A DNA stretch of 25,642 nt, taken from IMG/VR virus record IMGVR_UViG_3300028733_000012, positions 1-25,642 of that record; one strand, 5' to 3'. The stretch's first letter is position 1. Every line of letters begins with the position of its first letter. Positions 6,177-20,293 of the stretch are shown piece after piece. The stretch is from a virus. The notes under the pieces are model-generated. The model was not told the origin of the DNA and did no database searches. It saw nothing but the letters and a program-made list of their open reading frames with translations. Both the position numbers and the translations under genes were made by a program.

Positions 6177-9100
6177 GACCTACTCCTAATCTGACCGCGC
6201 TGGGCTTCCTTAATAGTATACATTACCTTGCCAGCGATTTCATCTGCTGTTGCAGTTGAGCCGAATCCGCTTACAGTCAAGTTGTACTCATTGTAGGTGT
6301 CACCACTGGTGCTACCGTTTACGGCAGGAGCCATGACAGGAACTGCTGTTGTGATTTCTGGGGCTGACCAATCACGGTAGAAGCTTCCCATGTTTCCACT
6401 CAATGCTGCCTTGTTAAGAGCAAGCAGACGCTTTGTCTCATACTTGTTCTGGCTCAAAGCCTCACCAACAGTAACGCCTTCCCCAGAACGTAGCATGGCA
6501 GGAACATTGTCACCGTGAGTTACTCCACGGAATCCCGGTAGAATACCTCCTCTTGCAGCGGTGAAGGACTTGCCATTCAAGGTGTAGACCATCTCGCCCT
6601 TTACCTTCTTGGCTGTGATCTTAACCTGCTTGTGTTCTGGGTCAACGCTGATCTGGGTAATGATGTGCTTCTTTACGTCGTTGTCCAGTGCCTCGGAAAT
6701 CTTGCGAGCGATAGTGGAGTAATCTCCCTTTACGTTCTTTCCGTTGATCTTGGAGGTTCCCTCAATGTCGTTCTTTGTTACTACCTTGGCATTTCCAAAT
6801 GTCTCAGAGACGTACTGGGCTGCTTCACCGGGACTGTTGAAGACCTTGATTGCGCCATTCTTGTCCTTGGTGACCATACCCATTTCAATCTTCTTCTGGA
6901 ACTTTGCCGCCTTGAGCTTAGCCTCAAGCTCCTTAAGGTCTGCTAGAGCCTTCTGTAGAGCCTTGCTGCTTGAACCAAGTGCCGTTCCAATTCCGCCTGC
7001 TGCGCCACCGGCTGCCTTTGACCTGTCGAACAATGTCTTCATTGCATTATTGATCTTGTTTGCATAGTCAAGCTGCTTGCGCTTCTGGTCAATGACTGCC
7101 TTCTCGCGGGCGATCTGCTGCTGGACATCTCCGAGGATGTCTGCAAGCAAGTCGCGCTGACGCTCAAGAGGCTTGATCTTCTCATCCTGAATCTTCTTGA
7201 TCTTCTGCTCAATGTCGTAAATCTGGTTGTCAAGGTCACGCAACGCTGGTGCGTACTTGTCAATCTGATCCTGCCAGAACTGAACCCTTGTATCGCGCTC
7301 GAACGTAAGCTGACGAATGCGCTCAGAGTTGTTTGCAATGCTGTTTGCAATTCCCTGTAGCTCAAGCTTGTAGTTGTCTTCAATGAGAGTGCGCTGTTGT
7401 GTCAAAGCTGCTAGCTGGCGATTAAGAGCGTCAACGCCCCTATCCATAGCGTCCTTGCGCTTTGAAAGCAAATCGTTCTGTGCGTTAAGGGCATCTGACT
7501 GTGCCTGTAGCTCGTCGCGCTGTCCCGTCATACCTGCGGTCTGTAGTTGACTTGCACCGCCTGCTGCACTGGACTGGGACTCAAGCATTGCTGCTGCGGC
7601 TGCGCCAGCATCACCGGAAGACAACGCAGAAGCTAGACCAAGCTGGGACTGCTTCTGTGCGGCAAGAATGTCATTGAGTGTCTTGACATCTTCAAGAGCA
7701 GAAATCTGGTCGTCAATTGCCTGAACCTGCTTGTCGATAAGCTCAGCATTAAGAGAGTTCTTCTCCATCTGGTCATCGAGAAGCTTGCCCTGTACTTCTG
7801 CTGCATACTGGGCTACATCAATCTGGTTCTGTAGAGCAGAAGTCTGTAGGTCAATTCCCTGTAGTTGCTTGTCTCTTGTTGCTTCAAGGGTTGCCTGCTG
7901 TCCTTCGAGCAACGTGTTGGCACGCTCAAGTGGCTTTGTCTGGGCAGCGTATCCCTCATTGATCTTATCAATTTCCTGCTGCCATTCGGTGATCTGACGA
8001 TTAATCTTATCCTGCTTGTCGTGTAGAACGTCAAGCCTGTCATTAAGAGGGTCAACCTGATTGCGGTTGATATCCTCAATCGTCTCATCGATCTGCTGCA
8101 TTGCGTATTCAACGTCGGCAGAATTCTTGACAGTTACCTTGAGTCCGTTGATTTCAACAGTCTTGCCACCCCAACGCTGATCCATGGCGTGCTGAATCTT
8201 GGAATCCTCGGTGCGGTCAATCTTTACCTCTTGGATATCCAGACGTGCGTTAGCCTTGGCAATAGCGTCAGACTTCTTGTCATACTTGGACTTAGGTGCT
8301 GATCCTCCACCACCGCCGCCGCCTCCACCGGAGCCTGCCTTCTTCTTGGCTGGCTTCTTTGTAAGGCTTGTGATCTGATTCTTCTTGGCTGCAATCTGTG
8401 CCTCAATGGTTCCAATGTTTGCGGTGCCATTAACGACAGGATTATTCTGTGCTGCTGCTGCAAGAACATTCAGTGCTGCTGTAGCAACGCCAGCGTTACC
8501 CGCTGCGCTCAATAGTGCATTGTTGATGTCAGTTGGGTCAGCGCCAGACATTACGGCATTAAGGGTAGCTGCCGCAACCGCTGCGTCATTAAGAACTGGA
8601 AGGTTGTACTGTAGTTGAACTCCCATTCCCTGAACTGCATTTGTGTATGCATCAGCCTGTGCCGCAGCATCCGTTGGGAATGCCTGCTGAACACTATTCT
8701 TGATTGCTAGGAATCCCTCTTGGAACTGCTGCTGATCAATAAGTCCAGCACCGAGGAACTTGTTGAGGTCTTCTGCGGACTGCTGAACAATAGAGCCTGA
8801 GCCAGCCTTGGTTTGAGCTTCCTCAGACCTGATAGCCTCAATGTTCTTCTTGTACTTTGCGATACTCTCAAGGGTCTTCTGATCGTATCCACCCTTGATC
8901 TTGATGCCATTCTTCTTGGCTTCCTCAATAAGCTTTTCCTGATCGGCAACCTTCTTGGCTGCCGTTGCTGCTGCCTCAAATCCCGGTGCCATGTTCTTCT
9001 GGATCAATTGAGCGACAGACCTGATCTTGCCCTTTGGATCAAGGGCGGTGCCTAGATCGTCACCAATCTTCTTGAAGATGTTCTGACGGTTTACTTCGTT

Positions 9101-13371: not shown

Positions 13372-14051
13372 TTATTCCACTATCTCGTAATCAAGGCCAT
13401 TTCCAATACCAATTCCAGCGGACATTGCTTCTGCCCCACGAAGGGTGGCGATGTCATTTGTCGATGTGCCGACTTCCTTTGCGGCCATCTTGTTTGCAAA
13501 GTCTTGGAGTGTCTTTGGCTCTTGGTCTTCGGGCTTACCGCCTTGGCTATCAAGATCGACTCCCTGCAATGCTGCATGGAATTTCTGCTGTTGATAGTCT
13601 GCGTCTCGTTTGGCGGCGAGAGTTGCGTTGAGTTCTGCCATTGAAAGACTGTGTTCGAGTTCCTCGTAGTCCTTCCACATACCCAACAGAAAGACTTCGC
13701 CTTCTAGCTTAGCAAGGTCGAAGTCTTCCCATGTTGTCCCGCCGCTTAGACGTTTCCCTGAATACGCATATCAATACCGGAAGCTACACGGATGATGTCG
13801 TAATAGTTGTTGATGTCTAGGTTATCTTCGATCCACTCCTTGGTCAAGTCTTCCTTGACCCACTGGCTTAGGCAGATGACTACACAGTCACCTAGGATGT
13901 TGAACGACTTGTCGTTGTCGCTACCGGCCTTCTCTAGCTTTGCGAACTCAGCCATGAACTTGCGGAGGTTGGCAATCTTTAGGGGCTTCATCGAGATGAC
14001 CATATTGTCTTCGAGCGTGAGGTTTTCAGTCTCATATACACTGCTTGGCAT
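13372..14051 (-). CDS. Tail assembly chaperone, frameshifted long form (gpGT-like)
   Basis: Join of 14051-13752 with 13752-13372, base 13752 being read twice. The product has 100 residues from the short frame and 126 from the -1 frame, 226 in all. The added part starts RLSGGTTWEDFDLAKLEGEV and then carries a Trp-rich, helical stretch (MWKDYEELEHSLSMAEL), as in other chaperone extensions, followed by a charged, linker-like tail ending GLDYEIVE. The second frame has no good start of its own: the only near start is a TTG at 13686 inside the open frame, without a Shine-Dalgarno. In lambda the T part binds tail tube protein and the G part binds the tape measure; the same split is assumed here. Confidence 0.85.
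13690..13729 (-). other. Inverted repeat downstream of the frameshift site
   Basis: In the minus-strand message AAGACTTCG (13727-13719) is perfectly complementary to CGAAGTCTT (13699-13691), and flanking bases add a G-U and a G-C pair, for a stem of about 11 pairs with a 19-base loop. It begins about 22 bases past the slippery site, further than the 5-9 bases usual for frameshift stimulators. Confidence 0.35.
13746..14051 (-). CDS. Tail assembly chaperone, short form (gpG-like)
   Basis: A 101-residue protein between tail tube and tape measure genes, where siphoviruses encode the chaperone that coats the tape measure while the tail is built. It is acidic and mostly helical (PLKIANLRKFMAEFAKLEK, then SFNILGDCVVICLSQWVKED, then IEDNLDINNYYDIIRVASGI). 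The last codons contain the slippery heptamer GGGAAAC, with the stop TAA two codons later. Most ribosomes should end here and a minority should shift to make the long form. No direct sequence match to lambda G is claimed; the call rests on place, size and the shift signal. Confidence 0.85.
   Translation of the reverse strand: MPSSVYETENLTLEDNMVISMKPLKIANLRKFMAEFAKLEKAGSDNDKSFNILGDCVVICLSQWVKEDLTKEWIEDNLDINNYYDIIRVASGIDMRIQGNV
13752..13758 (-). other. -1 ribosomal frameshift site GGGAAAC
   Basis: On the minus strand the zero frame reads CAG GGA AAC GTC TAA. The heptamer G-GGA-AAC fits the X-XXY-YYZ rule, so both tRNAs can re-pair as GGG-AAA, with reading resumed at CGT. The lambda G-T site is GGGAAAG, one base different. 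The new frame stays open for 126 codons to 13372. Confidence 0.88.
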
Positions 14052-14082
14052 GTGTATCCTTTCGTAGTAGTTGAATAACGAA

Positions 14083-14091
14083 AGTATATCA
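14083..14091 (-). promoter_or_regulatory. Extended -10 promoter for the tail chaperone genes
   Basis: Minus strand reads TGATATACT, just past the tail tube terminator. Start of transcription is expected near 14076, giving a leader of about 25 bases with GAAAGGAT before the ATG at 14051. No -35 is seen; the terminator stem occupies that area. Confidence 0.5.
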
Positions 14092-14103
14092 TAGGGACGA
14101 CAA

Positions 14104-14125
14104 AGGCACCCCCGTAGGGGTGCCT
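14104..14125 (-). terminator. Hairpin terminator after the tail tube gene
   Basis: A perfect 9-base stem (AGGCACCCC at 14104-14112 with GGGGTGCCT at 14117-14125) closes a 4-base loop. On the minus strand it is followed by TTTGTCGTCCC, a short U-tract. It lies 28 bases after the tail tube stop and 13 bases before the next -10 element. Its downstream flank CCTTTGTCGT is the same as that of the capsid terminator. Confidence 0.75.
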
Positions 14126-14152
14126 ATGCCATTCAGCTACTACTTGGAGCTA

Positions 14153-14749
14153 TTAGACTCCGACAGCGCGGTCAATGATCTTACCGTAGGTACCAGAGTT
14201 ATCTGGAAGCATACGGAAGGAGATTTCGAACTGAGAAGCTTCGTCGCGCTTCGCGCTGATCGTTACACTGTCCATGGACAATGCACGGTAAGCTGCATAG
14301 ATACGCTCTGTTGGAACGGTCTGAGGACCGGGACCAATTGCTACCAAGCCACGCTCGATAGGAGCGTCACCCAATTCACCAGACTTTAGCGTCAATTCTC
14401 CACCTGCGAGGTCCGTGTCCTTAGCTGCAATAGCAAGAACAAGGTTCTCAAGTGTAGCCTCTGCCAGTGTGGTCTTCATTGTAACCTGCATACCCTGCTT
14501 GAAGAGCTTAGCAACGTCTAGCTGCTGGTCAACCTTAACTTCACCGAAGTCAGGCTGGTACTGTAGCTCAAGTCCGTTGGTCGTGTAACCGACGTTACGG
14601 AAGTCTGCGTCAGCGGCAATTGTAGTAATTGCCTTTGTTGCTGGTACCCAAGTAGGTAGGTCAGCGGCTGCCATTTCGCCGTCTTCGAAAACGAAGAGTG
14701 CTGCGGCACCAACGATGATCTGCTTAGAGTCACCACGAGTATAAGCCAT
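14153..14749 (-). CDS. Major tail (tube) protein
   Basis: A 198-residue protein that would polymerise into the tail tube. It has the usual features: a short N-terminal arm, GAAALFVFEDG, then FRNVGYTTNGLELQYQPDFGEVKVDQQLDV, which fits the tube-protein pattern in which an early strand pair is followed by a loop ending at a glycine-rich turn, and alternating strands to the end (SMDSVTISAKRDEASQFEISFRMLPD). The start follows GAGGTGAAAC. It has its own promoter-like element and a terminator 28 bases past its stop, in keeping with the large amount of this protein needed, and it precedes the tail chaperone genes as in most siphoviruses. Confidence 0.88.
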   Translation of the reverse strand: MAYTRGDSKQIIVGAAALFVFEDGEMAAADLPTWVPATKAITTIAADADFRNVGYTTNGLELQYQPDFGEVKVDQQLDVAKLFKQGMQVTMKTTLAEATLENLVLAIAAKDTDLAGGELTLKSGELGDAPIERGLVAIGPGPQTVPTERIYAAYRALSMDSVTISAKRDEASQFEISFRMLPDNSGTYGKIIDRAVGV

Positions 14750-14794
14750 GTTTCACCTCTTTCTTTTTGGAGTTATGGACGTTTCCTCGAACTA

Positions 14795-14803
14795 ATTGTA
14801 CCA
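14795..14803 (-). promoter_or_regulatory. Extended -10 promoter of the tail tube gene
   Basis: Minus strand reads TGGTACAAT, 6 bases past the stop of the preceding gene. Transcription would begin near 14788, giving a leader of about 39 bases that ends in the Shine-Dalgarno GAGGTG before the ATG at 14749. No -35 match is seen. Together with the terminator at 14104-14125 it would make the tail tube a separate, strongly expressed unit. Confidence 0.5.
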
Positions 14804-16417: not shown

Positions 16418-17304
16418 CAGAGCAATCCTGCCCTCACGATGTAGTCCCTGTAAACCCTGAGCAGAACGTCCACTGTCTTATTGCCTGTGCCCGTAAGAGC
16501 CTTGGCGCTGTACTTGATCTTGTACTGGTCTGTTGCGTACTCCAAGACATACTTGTCGGTGTATGAGGAGCCGCACGTAATGTCGTCTACAAGAAGCTTG
16601 AGACATTGGCTTACTACTGGTGGGATAACTTCGTGACCTGTTTCGAACTGGACAACGTAATCTTTACCTGTTGGGAAGGAACCACTTCGTCCATATGTTG
16701 AGCCATAGTCTGATCCTGCGAACATGAGCGAGATTGGCTTTCCAGACTCATAGTCCGAATCACCTAGGTGAATGATCGATGTCCTGTCAGGTGAGATTGC
16801 AAGGTCGTATGGGTTGGTTTCTGATTCAGAGTCGTAAACCAGAACTCCACTCTCCCATACCTTCAATAGCTTGTTGAGCTTGTAGGGTACCGTCAGGTAA
16901 TCGCTACCGCTGCCCTCTGTCTCATATGTTTCCTTGAGCATGTAGAATCCATTGGTGTATCCGTCGATAATGCCTCTGGCGACAACCTCATTGGCTACCG
17001 CCTTGGCATACTGCGCCTCAGTATAGATTGATGGCAGCAAAGCTTTGATATCGATGTATGGCCTCACAACGGACACCTGATCAGCTACCTTGAGATATCC
17101 TCCTGTGGATACCTTCATAACGTAGTCATCATCGTACATGCTTGGAACTTCAATTCTTAGAGCGCCCTCATTATCAGTTGTTGCGGTGCCCTTAGCAACC
17201 TCAACAGAGTCTCCGTCAACCAAAGACCAAGTGTATACTGTGCTTGCTTCTAGCCCCGCCTTGTCATAAAACAAAGGGAATGGGGGCACTCTATGAATGA
17301 TCAT
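16417..17304 (-). CDS. Head-tail adaptor (connector) protein with N-terminal Ig-like domain
   Basis: A 295-residue protein. Residues 1-85 have the beta pattern of an Ig-like or prealbumin-like domain (STVYTWSLVDGDSVEVAKGTA, then DDDYVMKVSTGGYLKVADQV, in separate strands). Residues 85-295 resemble adaptor proteins that bind under the portal: DIKALLPSIYTEAQYAKAVA helix, a beta-rich middle, then HEVIPPVVSQCLKLLVDDI helix and a final LLRVYRDYIVRAGLL helix. Two cysteines (CLKLLVDDITC) lie close together. It overlaps both neighbours (4 bases before, 1 base after). Role is inferred from order and from the GHEVIPPVV...L pattern typical of gp6-like adaptors. The extra N-terminal domain is longer than usual and may project from the neck. 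Confidence 0.65.
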   Translation of the reverse strand: MIIHRVPPFPLFYDKAGLEASTVYTWSLVDGDSVEVAKGTATTDNEGALRIEVPSMYDDDYVMKVSTGGYLKVADQVSVVRPYIDIKALLPSIYTEAQYAKAVANEVVARGIIDGYTNGFYMLKETYETEGSGSDYLTVPYKLNKLLKVWESGVLVYDSESETNPYDLAISPDRTSIIHLGDSDYESGKPISLMFAGSDYGSTYGRSGSFPTGKDYVVQFETGHEVIPPVVSQCLKLLVDDITCGSSYTDKYVLEYATDQYKIKYSAKALTGTGNKTVDVLLRVYRDYIVRAGLL

Positions 17305-17597
17305 CGTCCGTAGAATTCCTTTACTTCCTCAACGGATGCCTCGCGTACCTTCTTCAAGGTTACCCACTTGGCTGCCGCTTCCTTGGTAACCACGTTGAAT
17401 CCTGCCTTTAGCTTTCCGACTTCGGACCAATCGATATTACCCTGAGAGACAACAATTGTCTTGTCATCTGCTACCGGCGCTACAACTGTCTTACGCGGCT
17501 TGCGTGACTGCTTTTGTGTTACTCCGGTCTTGCCCATTACTAGGGCACCAACACCTTCCTCTACAGGCTCAGGTGCGGTGACTTCAACATCACTCAT
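17301..17597 (-). CDS. Small hypothetical protein between capsid and head-tail adaptor
   Basis: A 98-residue protein. The N-terminal 50 residues are acidic and then basic and proline-rich, probably disordered. The C-terminal part (WSEVGKLKAGFNVVTKEAAAKW, then VREASVEEVKEFYG) is compact and resembles a small protein I remember at this place in actinophage virion gene blocks, with no assigned function. The start at 17597 follows GGAGGAAA. An in-frame ATG at 17609 overlaps that Shine-Dalgarno, lies 6 bases after the -10 element, and would give 102 residues by a leaderless start. The stop overlaps the next start by 4 bases (ATGA), so the two genes are coupled. Confidence 0.75.
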   Translation of the reverse strand: MSDVEVTAPEPVEEGVGALVMGKTGVTQKQSRKPRKTVVAPVADDKTIVVSQGNIDWSEVGKLKAGFNVVTKEAAAKWVTLKKVREASVEEVKEFYGR

Positions 17598-17615: not shown

Positions 17616-17624
17616 ATTATATCA
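17616..17624 (-). promoter_or_regulatory. Extended -10 promoter for the neck gene block
   Basis: Minus strand reads TGATATAAT, a perfect extended -10, 13 bases past the terminator stem. No -35 is seen, since the terminator stem occupies that area. Six bases (GAACGC) separate it from an ATG at 17609 that is in frame with the small gene downstream, so the message may begin exactly at that ATG. The stretch upstream (CCTTTGTCGT, then ATGATATAAT) is nearly repeated at the tail-chaperone promoter. Confidence 0.6.
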
Positions 17625-17637
17625 TTGGGTACGACAA

Positions 17638-17661
17638 AGGGGGCAGGTTACCCCGCCCCCT
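17638..17661 (-). terminator. Hairpin terminator after the major capsid gene
   Basis: A perfect 7-base stem (AGGGGGC at 17638-17644 with GCCCCCT at 17655-17661) encloses a 10-base loop, which can shorten by pairing GG with CC inside. On the minus strand the stem is followed by TTTGTCGT, a short, weak U-tract. It lies 20 bases after the capsid stop and just before the promoter at 17616-17624. Some readthrough is likely. Confidence 0.7.
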
Positions 17662-17680
17662 CTGACTTAGCTTCTACCGA

Positions 17681-18745
17681 TCAGATGTCGGCTGCTGCAT
17701 CTGCATAAGCAAGTGCGTCAAGCTCTTCCCAAGCGAGTCCGAAACGTACGTATACGGTGTACTCGATTGTGTCCTTCTTGTTACGGAACTCGCGGTACAT
17801 CTGCACGTCGCGCTGGAAGCCCCACAAGCGGTTCTGTGGGAAGGTTAGTTCCACACGATCCTCTGGGAAGTAAGGTACTTCCACAACATTCAGACCCAGA
17901 ACCTTAGTAGCCTTGAGGCCACCAATTACCTGATCGGTACCGTTGAGGTACGTCTGCTTGTTGTTGTCGGTCCAGATAGCGTTGGCAAGAGTACCGTTGT
18001 TACGAACAATGTTCGCAAATGTGGTAGAGCCTGCGTAGAACTTTAGACCGTTCTTCATTGCGCGATACTTGCGAGGCATCGTGTCGATGAGACCCTGCAT
18101 AACCTCTGGCGTCCATGCTCCGCCAGTAACGGTTACAACCTTCTCATGTGCTCCTGAACCGGATGCGTCAGCGAGAGCTACGAATCCCGGCATAATCTTG
18201 AGGAACTTGTCAGCGCCGGTACCTAGACCGTTGATTGCCAAGTCTTCAATGTCATTTGCTAGTGCGTTCGTCATGTTGCGAACGATGCGATCTTCGAGGG
18301 CATCCTTTTCGATGTTGTCCTCAAGAACTTCTGTGGAAAGCTCCCAGTCGAGACGAATCTTCTTCGTAGTAAGCTCAATCTTTGTGAATTCAGCTCCTGC
18401 GTTCTCGTAAGTTCCGTCAGCCTGTGCTGCGGCGCGGATTACACGCTCACCAACATTAAGCTTCTCAATTTCTGCGGTGTTTGCACGCATTGTGATCTTG
18501 CGACCATCCTGAGCAAGATAAGTAGCATCCCATACGTAATCGATGAACTGCTTGGACTGATCTGGCTGTAGGATTCCTCCACCGGCTGTACCGGATGGGT
18601 TAACGGCGTTAGCACCGGATGTGCTTCCGAAATAGCCACCAGCTACGTTTCCTACATTACCTGCGGCTGGGGAAGTTACTCCACCAATACCACCGGCTGC
18701 AAGAACACCAGCTTCAACGGCCTTTTCTAGAACCTCTTCTGACAT
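17681..18745 (-). CDS. Major capsid protein (HK97 fold)
   Basis: A 354-residue protein forming the capsid shell. A Gly/Ala-rich N-terminal arm of about 55 residues precedes the fold proper (SKQFIDYVWDATYLAQDGRKI). Helical and strand segments typical of HK97-like capsids follow: LDWELSTEVLEDN, DALEDRIVRNMTNALANDIEDLAINGLG (spine-helix-like), then a TP-rich mid-domain with MPRKYRAMKNGLKFYAG, and a C-terminal VYVRFGLAWEELDALAYADA. The ATG at 18745 is chosen because GGAGGTG lies just before it. An in-frame ATG at 18757 overlaps that Shine-Dalgarno and would add four residues. It follows the protease by 27 bases and is closed by a hairpin terminator. No long N-terminal scaffold domain is present, which fits scaffolding by the protease C-terminus. 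Confidence 0.92.
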   Translation of the reverse strand: MSEEVLEKAVEAGVLAAGGIGGVTSPAAGNVGNVAGGYFGSTSGANAVNPSGTAGGGILQPDQSKQFIDYVWDATYLAQDGRKITMRANTAEIEKLNVGERVIRAAAQADGTYENAGAEFTKIELTTKKIRLDWELSTEVLEDNIEKDALEDRIVRNMTNALANDIEDLAINGLGTGADKFLKIMPGFVALADASGSGAHEKVVTVTGGAWTPEVMQGLIDTMPRKYRAMKNGLKFYAGSTTFANIVRNNGTLANAIWTDNNKQTYLNGTDQVIGGLKATKVLGLNVVEVPYFPEDRVELTFPQNRLWGFQRDVQMYREFRNKKDTIEYTVYVRFGLAWEELDALAYADAAADI

Positions 18746-18772
18746 TTTCACCTCCATTTGTTATTAAAACTG

Positions 18773-20284: not shown

Positions 20285-20293
20285 AGTATATCA
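20285..20293 (-). promoter_or_regulatory. Candidate extended -10 overlapping the portal stop codon
   Basis: The portal stop TGA runs straight into TATACT, giving TGATATACT. Only 9 bases (AGGAGAGCT) separate it from the first protease ATG, so transcription from here would start inside or just after the Shine-Dalgarno. It is the weakest of the series on position, but it repeats the stop-codon overlap seen at 25069-25077. Confidence 0.3.

Follow-up and report, generated by a model that had tools for sequence, protein, structure and literature searches.

Terminator-like hairpins and extended -10 boxes behind the major capsid and tail tube genes of a virus fragment and its relatives

The window, that is, the whole stretch of DNA analysed here, is a 25.6-kb virus fragment (25,642 nt) with its genes on the minus strand, in the order portal, protease, major capsid protein (MCP), a small gene, head-tail genes, tail terminator, tail tube or major tail protein (MTP), tail assembly chaperones, and tape measure, which matches the order found in the Streptomyces phages of the Stanwilliamsviridae. 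In tblastn comparisons, the MCP is 42-45% identical over about 80% to annotated Streptomyces phage major capsid proteins, and the MTP about 46% identical over 99% to annotated Stanwilliamsviridae major tail proteins, while the chaperone gene at 13746-14051 is syntenic with Circinus gp34 and Faust gp37. The features of the two units are as follows:

20285-20293, minus: hairpin-less extended -10 box TGATATACT, overlapping the portal stop, which would open the protease-MCP unit
17681-18757, minus: MCP gene, the upstream gene of unit 1, with a likely real start at 18745
17635-17664, minus: post-MCP hairpin CAGAGGGGGCGGGGTAACCTGCCCCCTTTG, 13-bp stem, 4-nt loop, -28.4 kcal/mol
17631-17640, minus: CCTTTGTCGT, copy 1, the 3' end of the stem plus an imperfect U-tract (5 T in 8)
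17616-17624, minus: post-MCP extended -10 box TGATATAAT, without a -35
17301-17597, minus: small gene behind the putative post-MCP promoter, start 17597, with the SD sequence GGAGGAAA directly upstream
14795-14803, minus: hairpin-less extended -10 box TGGTACAAT upstream of MTP, which would open the MTP unit (20 relatives have the box, none with a hairpin)
14153-14749, minus: MTP gene, the upstream gene of unit 2
14131-14143, minus: 5' arm GTAGTAGCTGAAT of an outer inverted repeat that surrounds the hairpin and promoter of unit 2
14099-14130, minus: post-MTP hairpin, GC core at 14104-14125 plus a UGUC/GGCA outer clamp, -26.5 kcal/mol
14097-14106, minus: CCTTTGTCGT, copy 2, the stem end plus an imperfect U-tract
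14083-14091, minus: post-MTP extended -10 box TGATATACT
14064-14076, minus: 3' arm ATTCAACTACTAC of the outer inverted repeat
13746-14051, minus: tail assembly chaperone gene behind the putative post-MTP promoter, start 14051

Read on the minus strand, the full post-MCP cassette is CAGAGGGGGCGGGGTAACCTGCCCCCTTTGTCGTACCCAATGATATAATGAACGCATGGAGGAAAATATG and the full post-MTP cassette GGCATAGGCACCCCTACGGGGGTGCCTTTGTCGTCCCTATGATATACTTTCG. Both have a strong GC hairpin with a short T-rich tail and then, after 7-10 nt, an extended -10 box without a -35. An initial sequence-only reading had described a terminator-promoter cassette after both genes, and this description holds, given that a hairpin and an extended -10 are present at each site and are kept in relatives.

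Two further structures lie close by. The post-MTP hairpin and promoter sit inside a 13-bp outer inverted repeat (14064-14143), also found in the relatives L125 and L131, in which its two arms have changed in concert; a comparison of the window with L131 by eye gives three compensatory pairs. As RNA, this repeat could form only in read-through transcripts. Between the two chaperone ORFs, at 13687-13745, there is a strong stem-loop (GAAGACTTCG...CGAAGTCTTTC); it is in this region that tailed phages usually have a programmed frameshift.

A search of viral contigs with the MCP recovered 320 relatives, 80 of which were kept. Nearly all of these have a G+C hairpin with a T-rich tail behind the MCP gene, and TGnTATAAT directly upstream of the SD sequence of the next gene. 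The 80 relatives and six isolates were clustered at 92% MCP nucleotide identity, which left 40 representatives, including Streptomyces Stanwilliamsviridae and the Rhodococcus phage Trina. A hairpin was counted at a junction when it reached -15 kcal/mol or better, and a box when it read TGnTAYAMT; genes were called by a simple ORF/SD script, in which the TAC and TACT labels are sometimes swapped in distant members, leaving the MCP and MTP counts unaffected.

The post-MCP junction has a hairpin in all 40 representatives and a box in 34, with most of the other six keeping a recognisable variant of the motif. After MTP, 29 of 30 junctions have a hairpin and 21 a box. Boxes are also frequent after the portal gene (17/34), after the tail-terminator gene (20 of 29), and after TACT (20 of 25), where hairpins number 0/34, 0/29, and 1/25, respectively. 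Neither element was found after the protease (hairpins 0/40), the adaptor (0/37), w17.3 (0/33), w15.3 (0/28), or w15.9. These counts place candidate promoters at many late junctions, and, in the structural region, the hairpin-promoter pair only at MCP and MTP. Counting from the boxes gives the same picture: all 34 post-MCP boxes and all 23 post-MTP boxes have a hairpin directly upstream, as against none of the 20 boxes in the gap from the tail-terminator gene to MTP, and 1 of the 27 antisense boxes. The median distance from the hairpin end to the TG is 11 nt at MCP and 7 nt at MTP. The layout is similar in Circinus, Samisti12, Faust, Comrade, Coruscant, and Trina, with some of the -10 boxes degenerate.

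The two halves are also separable. In the relative L194, the MCP hairpin and the promoter have been split apart by an inserted antisense ORF. The promoter stays beside the downstream gene and is nearly identical to that of L172 (CATATTCTGATATAATAGCAGTGGAGGTCACAATG), so both halves are kept even when they are no longer adjacent. The inserted ORF (L194:11074-11546) resembles, by eye, an HNH/endonuclease VII-type gene.

The special position of MCP and MTP, as proposed in the sequence-only reading, is thus upheld for the structural region, but not genome-wide. The complete genomes of Samisti12 and Faust contain 6 and 11 hairpin-box sites, respectively, in all at the same cut-off, some of them weak folds, in coding sequence, or next to tRNAs; the extra cassette that stands out most clearly is at Samisti12 85192, behind a Ro-like RNA-binding protein gene. 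The further cassettes in these two isolates limit the exclusivity to the structural genes, and the cassette is a general boundary in sparing use, of which the MCP/MTP pair is the conserved use. A looser pattern, CTTTGTCGT-N(1,12)-TGATATA, gave more than 100 matches over all viral contigs, and was too loose to be informative.

The hairpin half resembles an intrinsic (rho-independent) terminator in being a stable, G+C-rich structure at the 3' end of a gene. Against dinucleotide shuffles, the window hairpins have z values of -5.8 (post-MCP) and -6.2 (post-MTP), with none of 200 shuffles equalling either, and a terminator scan of the window has a match at 17654-17640, in the post-MCP hairpin. The stems of the two window hairpins are unlike in sequence, as the sequence-only reading had noted, and stem sequence is highly variable among the relatives, while the structure is kept. 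There is no support for one cassette having arisen as a copy of the other, as the post-MCP and post-MTP flanks are unlike within other genomes. Behind the stem, the U-tract has 5 T of 8 in the window and is T-rich in most relatives. Given that the window U-tract (TTTGTCGT) is imperfect, and that the post-MTP tract of L125 and L131 is essentially absent, with the hairpin leading straight into TGCTATACT, the strength of termination is uncertain.

The promoter half has a TGn directly upstream of a TATAAT-like hexamer, as in an extended -10 promoter of the primary sigma factor. In 603 kb, TGnTAYAMT occurs 196 times in the sense and 27 times in the antisense orientation, where shuffles predict about 47 per strand, and 172 of the 196 sense sites fall in intergenic DNA, which makes up 7% of the sequence. 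Alignments of the relatives by junction have no -35 signal in any junction group, and in the cassette the position of a -35 falls within or beside the hairpin. At the boxes before MTP and before the protease, an AAAA block lies a few nt upstream of the TG. Five other gene junctions of the window (25077, 22374, 20293, 14803, and 13364) have an extended -10 without a hairpin, which means that the promoter half is not specific to the two sites; only the pairing with a hairpin is.

Some of the sequences just downstream of the boxes are also unusual. In L177, L166, L143, L154, L197, L134, and L136, the post-MTP box lies 6 nt from the chaperone ATG, a distance that predicts a leaderless chaperone mRNA; leaderless phage mRNAs have also been proposed for the Cluster O mycobacteriophages (PMC4351075). 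In the window (14750-14803, minus strand) and in 22 relatives, the tail tube mRNA has a 5' leader that begins, immediately behind the -10, with a strongly conserved element, which reads TTGAGGAAACACGCC in the relatives, TTCGAGGAAACGTCC in the window, and GAGGAAGTGCC in the Streptomyces isolates. At approximately 35-45 nt before the MTP ATG, it is too distant to be an SD sequence.

It is quite probable, on the pattern of these motifs, that a terminator-like hairpin combined with a sigma-A-type extended -10 bounds the MCP and MTP units, and raises both above their neighbours. The hairpin, with its short, imperfect U-tract, would end the capsid (or tail tube) transcript, and the extended -10 (TGnTATAAT, without a -35), about 5-15 nt further on, would start the transcript of the next, less-needed genes. 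Strong transcription from the promoters upstream of protease-MCP and of MTP would stop at the hairpins, and the hairpin-less upstream promoters, together with the cassettes, would make MCP and MTP separately bounded units, expressed at a higher level than their neighbours.

The hairpin could also act chiefly on the mRNA, as a 3' stabiliser or a processing site, and lengthen the life of the MCP and MTP mRNAs with little termination, in which case the -10 would be an independent internal promoter. The stems are strong and G+C-rich, and the U-tracts are weak or missing in part of the family (L125 and L131 post-MTP, and the imperfect tract of the window); a siting confined to the genes of the two most abundant proteins would fit stabilisation equally well, and protecting or defining the 3' ends of the mRNAs would be an equally possible role for the hairpins. 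Against little termination, most members have a T-rich tail directly behind the stem, as in intrinsic terminators, and a promoter directly behind the hairpin would presumably be needed only if the upstream transcripts mostly end there, which makes this alternative unlikely as the main function.

For the promoter half, the reader of the boxes might be a phage-specific initiation factor, such as a T4 gp55-like protein or a diverged sigma, as a very uniform motif without a -35 recurs at many late junctions. TGnTATAAT is, however, the ordinary extended -10, which primary sigma factors use without a -35. In addition, the sigma region-2 domain (PF04542) was found in 0/16 records (six complete isolates and 10 long contigs), a search that a strongly diverged factor would escape, and the region-4 helix-turn-helix (PF04545) gave only sub-threshold matches, in Faust and Coruscant. 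A dedicated phage factor is improbable on this evidence, and, with no region-2 domain in the six complete isolates, the host primary sigma factor would be the simplest reader of the extended -10 boxes.

The two window cassettes also share the 10-mer CCTTTGTCGT, of which there are exactly two copies in the 25.6 kb, on both strands searched, at equivalent positions. The sequence-only reading took this flank to be a specific signal between terminator and promoter, either a protein-binding site or a box for pausing and restarting the polymerase, and, in its favour, TTTGTCGT/TTTGTCAT recurs in Trina, Comrade, L172, and L151. When the relatives are searched, hairpin and box recur, but the flank is not kept, an outcome that the sequence-only reading had itself named as refuting its proposal. 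It is missing from relatives with an 84% identical MCP, which have CCTTTCGCGT or no T-tract at this position, and from most of the 40 representatives, in which the hairpin and -10 persist. The post-MCP flank is CCTTTCGCGT in L125-L130 and CCTTTTCGCG in L131, the post-MTP flank is CCATTGTGC in L125 and L131, and more distant relatives have CCCTCTTTTTTT, CCCCTTATTCAT, and similar sequences. The tail after the stem is just as variable (TTTGTCGT in the window, TTTCGCGT in L125, TTTTCGCG in L131, TTTTTTTCATT in L177, TTATTCATT in L166, TTTCGTGTT in Faust, and TTTTGTCGT in Trina and Comrade), so that the 10-mer is no conserved box.

The composition of the 10-mer points in the same direction. Its CC is part of the stem's 3' arm, and TTTG / TGTC pair partly with the 5' flank, so that it is no separate box between terminator and promoter. 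TTTGTC recurs in L172, L151, L205, and Trina, usually with a pairable GAC or GGC in the 5' flank, and the GTC after the T's often faces such a triplet (L172, L180, L151, Comrade, and the window MTP), which gives a longer stem; the GUC is thus mostly paired where it recurs, and the UUU is the U-tract. A dedicated signal is highly improbable, and the claim falls: CCTTTGTCGT is the 3' arm of the hairpin plus an imperfect U-tract, often pairing as a stem clamp, and the GTCGT common to both window copies, while more than random letters, is a detail of this lineage. A chance juxtaposition of an AT-rich gap and an unrelated hairpin has a negligible probability, as the lack of an excess over shuffles in generic sigma-70 and terminator scans of the window arises because those scans demand a -35, absent from the extended -10 type, and as folds with z near -6 and conservation in 40 divergent phages exclude it.

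Within the preferred reading, that of bounded MCP and MTP units, the very short spacing places the promoter at the position of a terminated polymerase, which would allow a hand-over: having released the capsid or tail-tube RNA, the host polymerase would not leave the DNA, but would be caught by the -35-independent promoter a few base pairs away and begin a new transcript on the gene behind it. Single-molecule work with purified bacterial polymerase has shown that a sigma-retaining polymerase can diffuse after termination and restart at a nearby promoter (PMC6978380). If this were true, transcription of the remaining structural genes would be coupled to transcription of the genes for the two most abundant proteins, and the tight spacing would be under selection. 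A hand-over is nevertheless a doubtful proposition here, and the compact insulation of neighbouring units is the simpler reading.

A large group of actinobacteria phages probably sets the stoichiometry of its virion proteins by dedicated transcription boundaries at two genes, as far as can be judged from the motifs. The clean, -35-less late promoter consensus for actinophages may be of use in annotation and in expression tools, and dozens of natural cases in which terminator and promoter are separated by a few bp offer a good test bed for the reinitiation of the polymerase after termination. Transcript mapping for the Stanwilliamsviridae or Coruscant was not recognised in the titles and abstracts of the matching papers. 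In the open-access literature, outside which many journals lie, no description was found of a paired MCP and MTP cassette of a terminator and a -35-less extended -10, which is apparently undescribed, while post-MCP terminators are already known from T7-like phages and SPP1.

Poor U-tracts have a parallel in the early region of the Streptomyces phage phiC31, which, going by the title of a paper, reportedly contains strong terminator stems of this type. In the Cluster O mycobacteriophages, a terminator-like hairpin with a short, weak U-tract follows the tail tube gene, and leaderless downstream genes, served by SigA promoters, are predicted (PMC4351075), but no promoter box has been described directly behind the hairpin, nor any matching post-capsid element. 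The Bacillus phage SPP1 is similar in having a predicted intrinsic terminator (8775-8815) just behind the stop of its MCP gene 13, which ends at 8777, but differs in that no late promoter consensus was found there, and no promoter was described behind the terminator (PMC6316719).

A further likeness is to T7 and its relatives. Late transcription in T7-like phages is carried out by a phage single-subunit RNA polymerase, whereas the boxes described here look like a host sigma-A extended -10, of the bacterial sigma type. In T7 and the T7-like LUZ100, the MCP gene has a local promoter and a strong terminator directly downstream (PMC10134795). The present phages resemble them, by sequence only, in the hairpin directly after MCP (40/40) and the extended -10 before protease-MCP (17/34), but differ in that a promoter lies directly behind the terminator, and that the same cassette is found at the tail tube gene.
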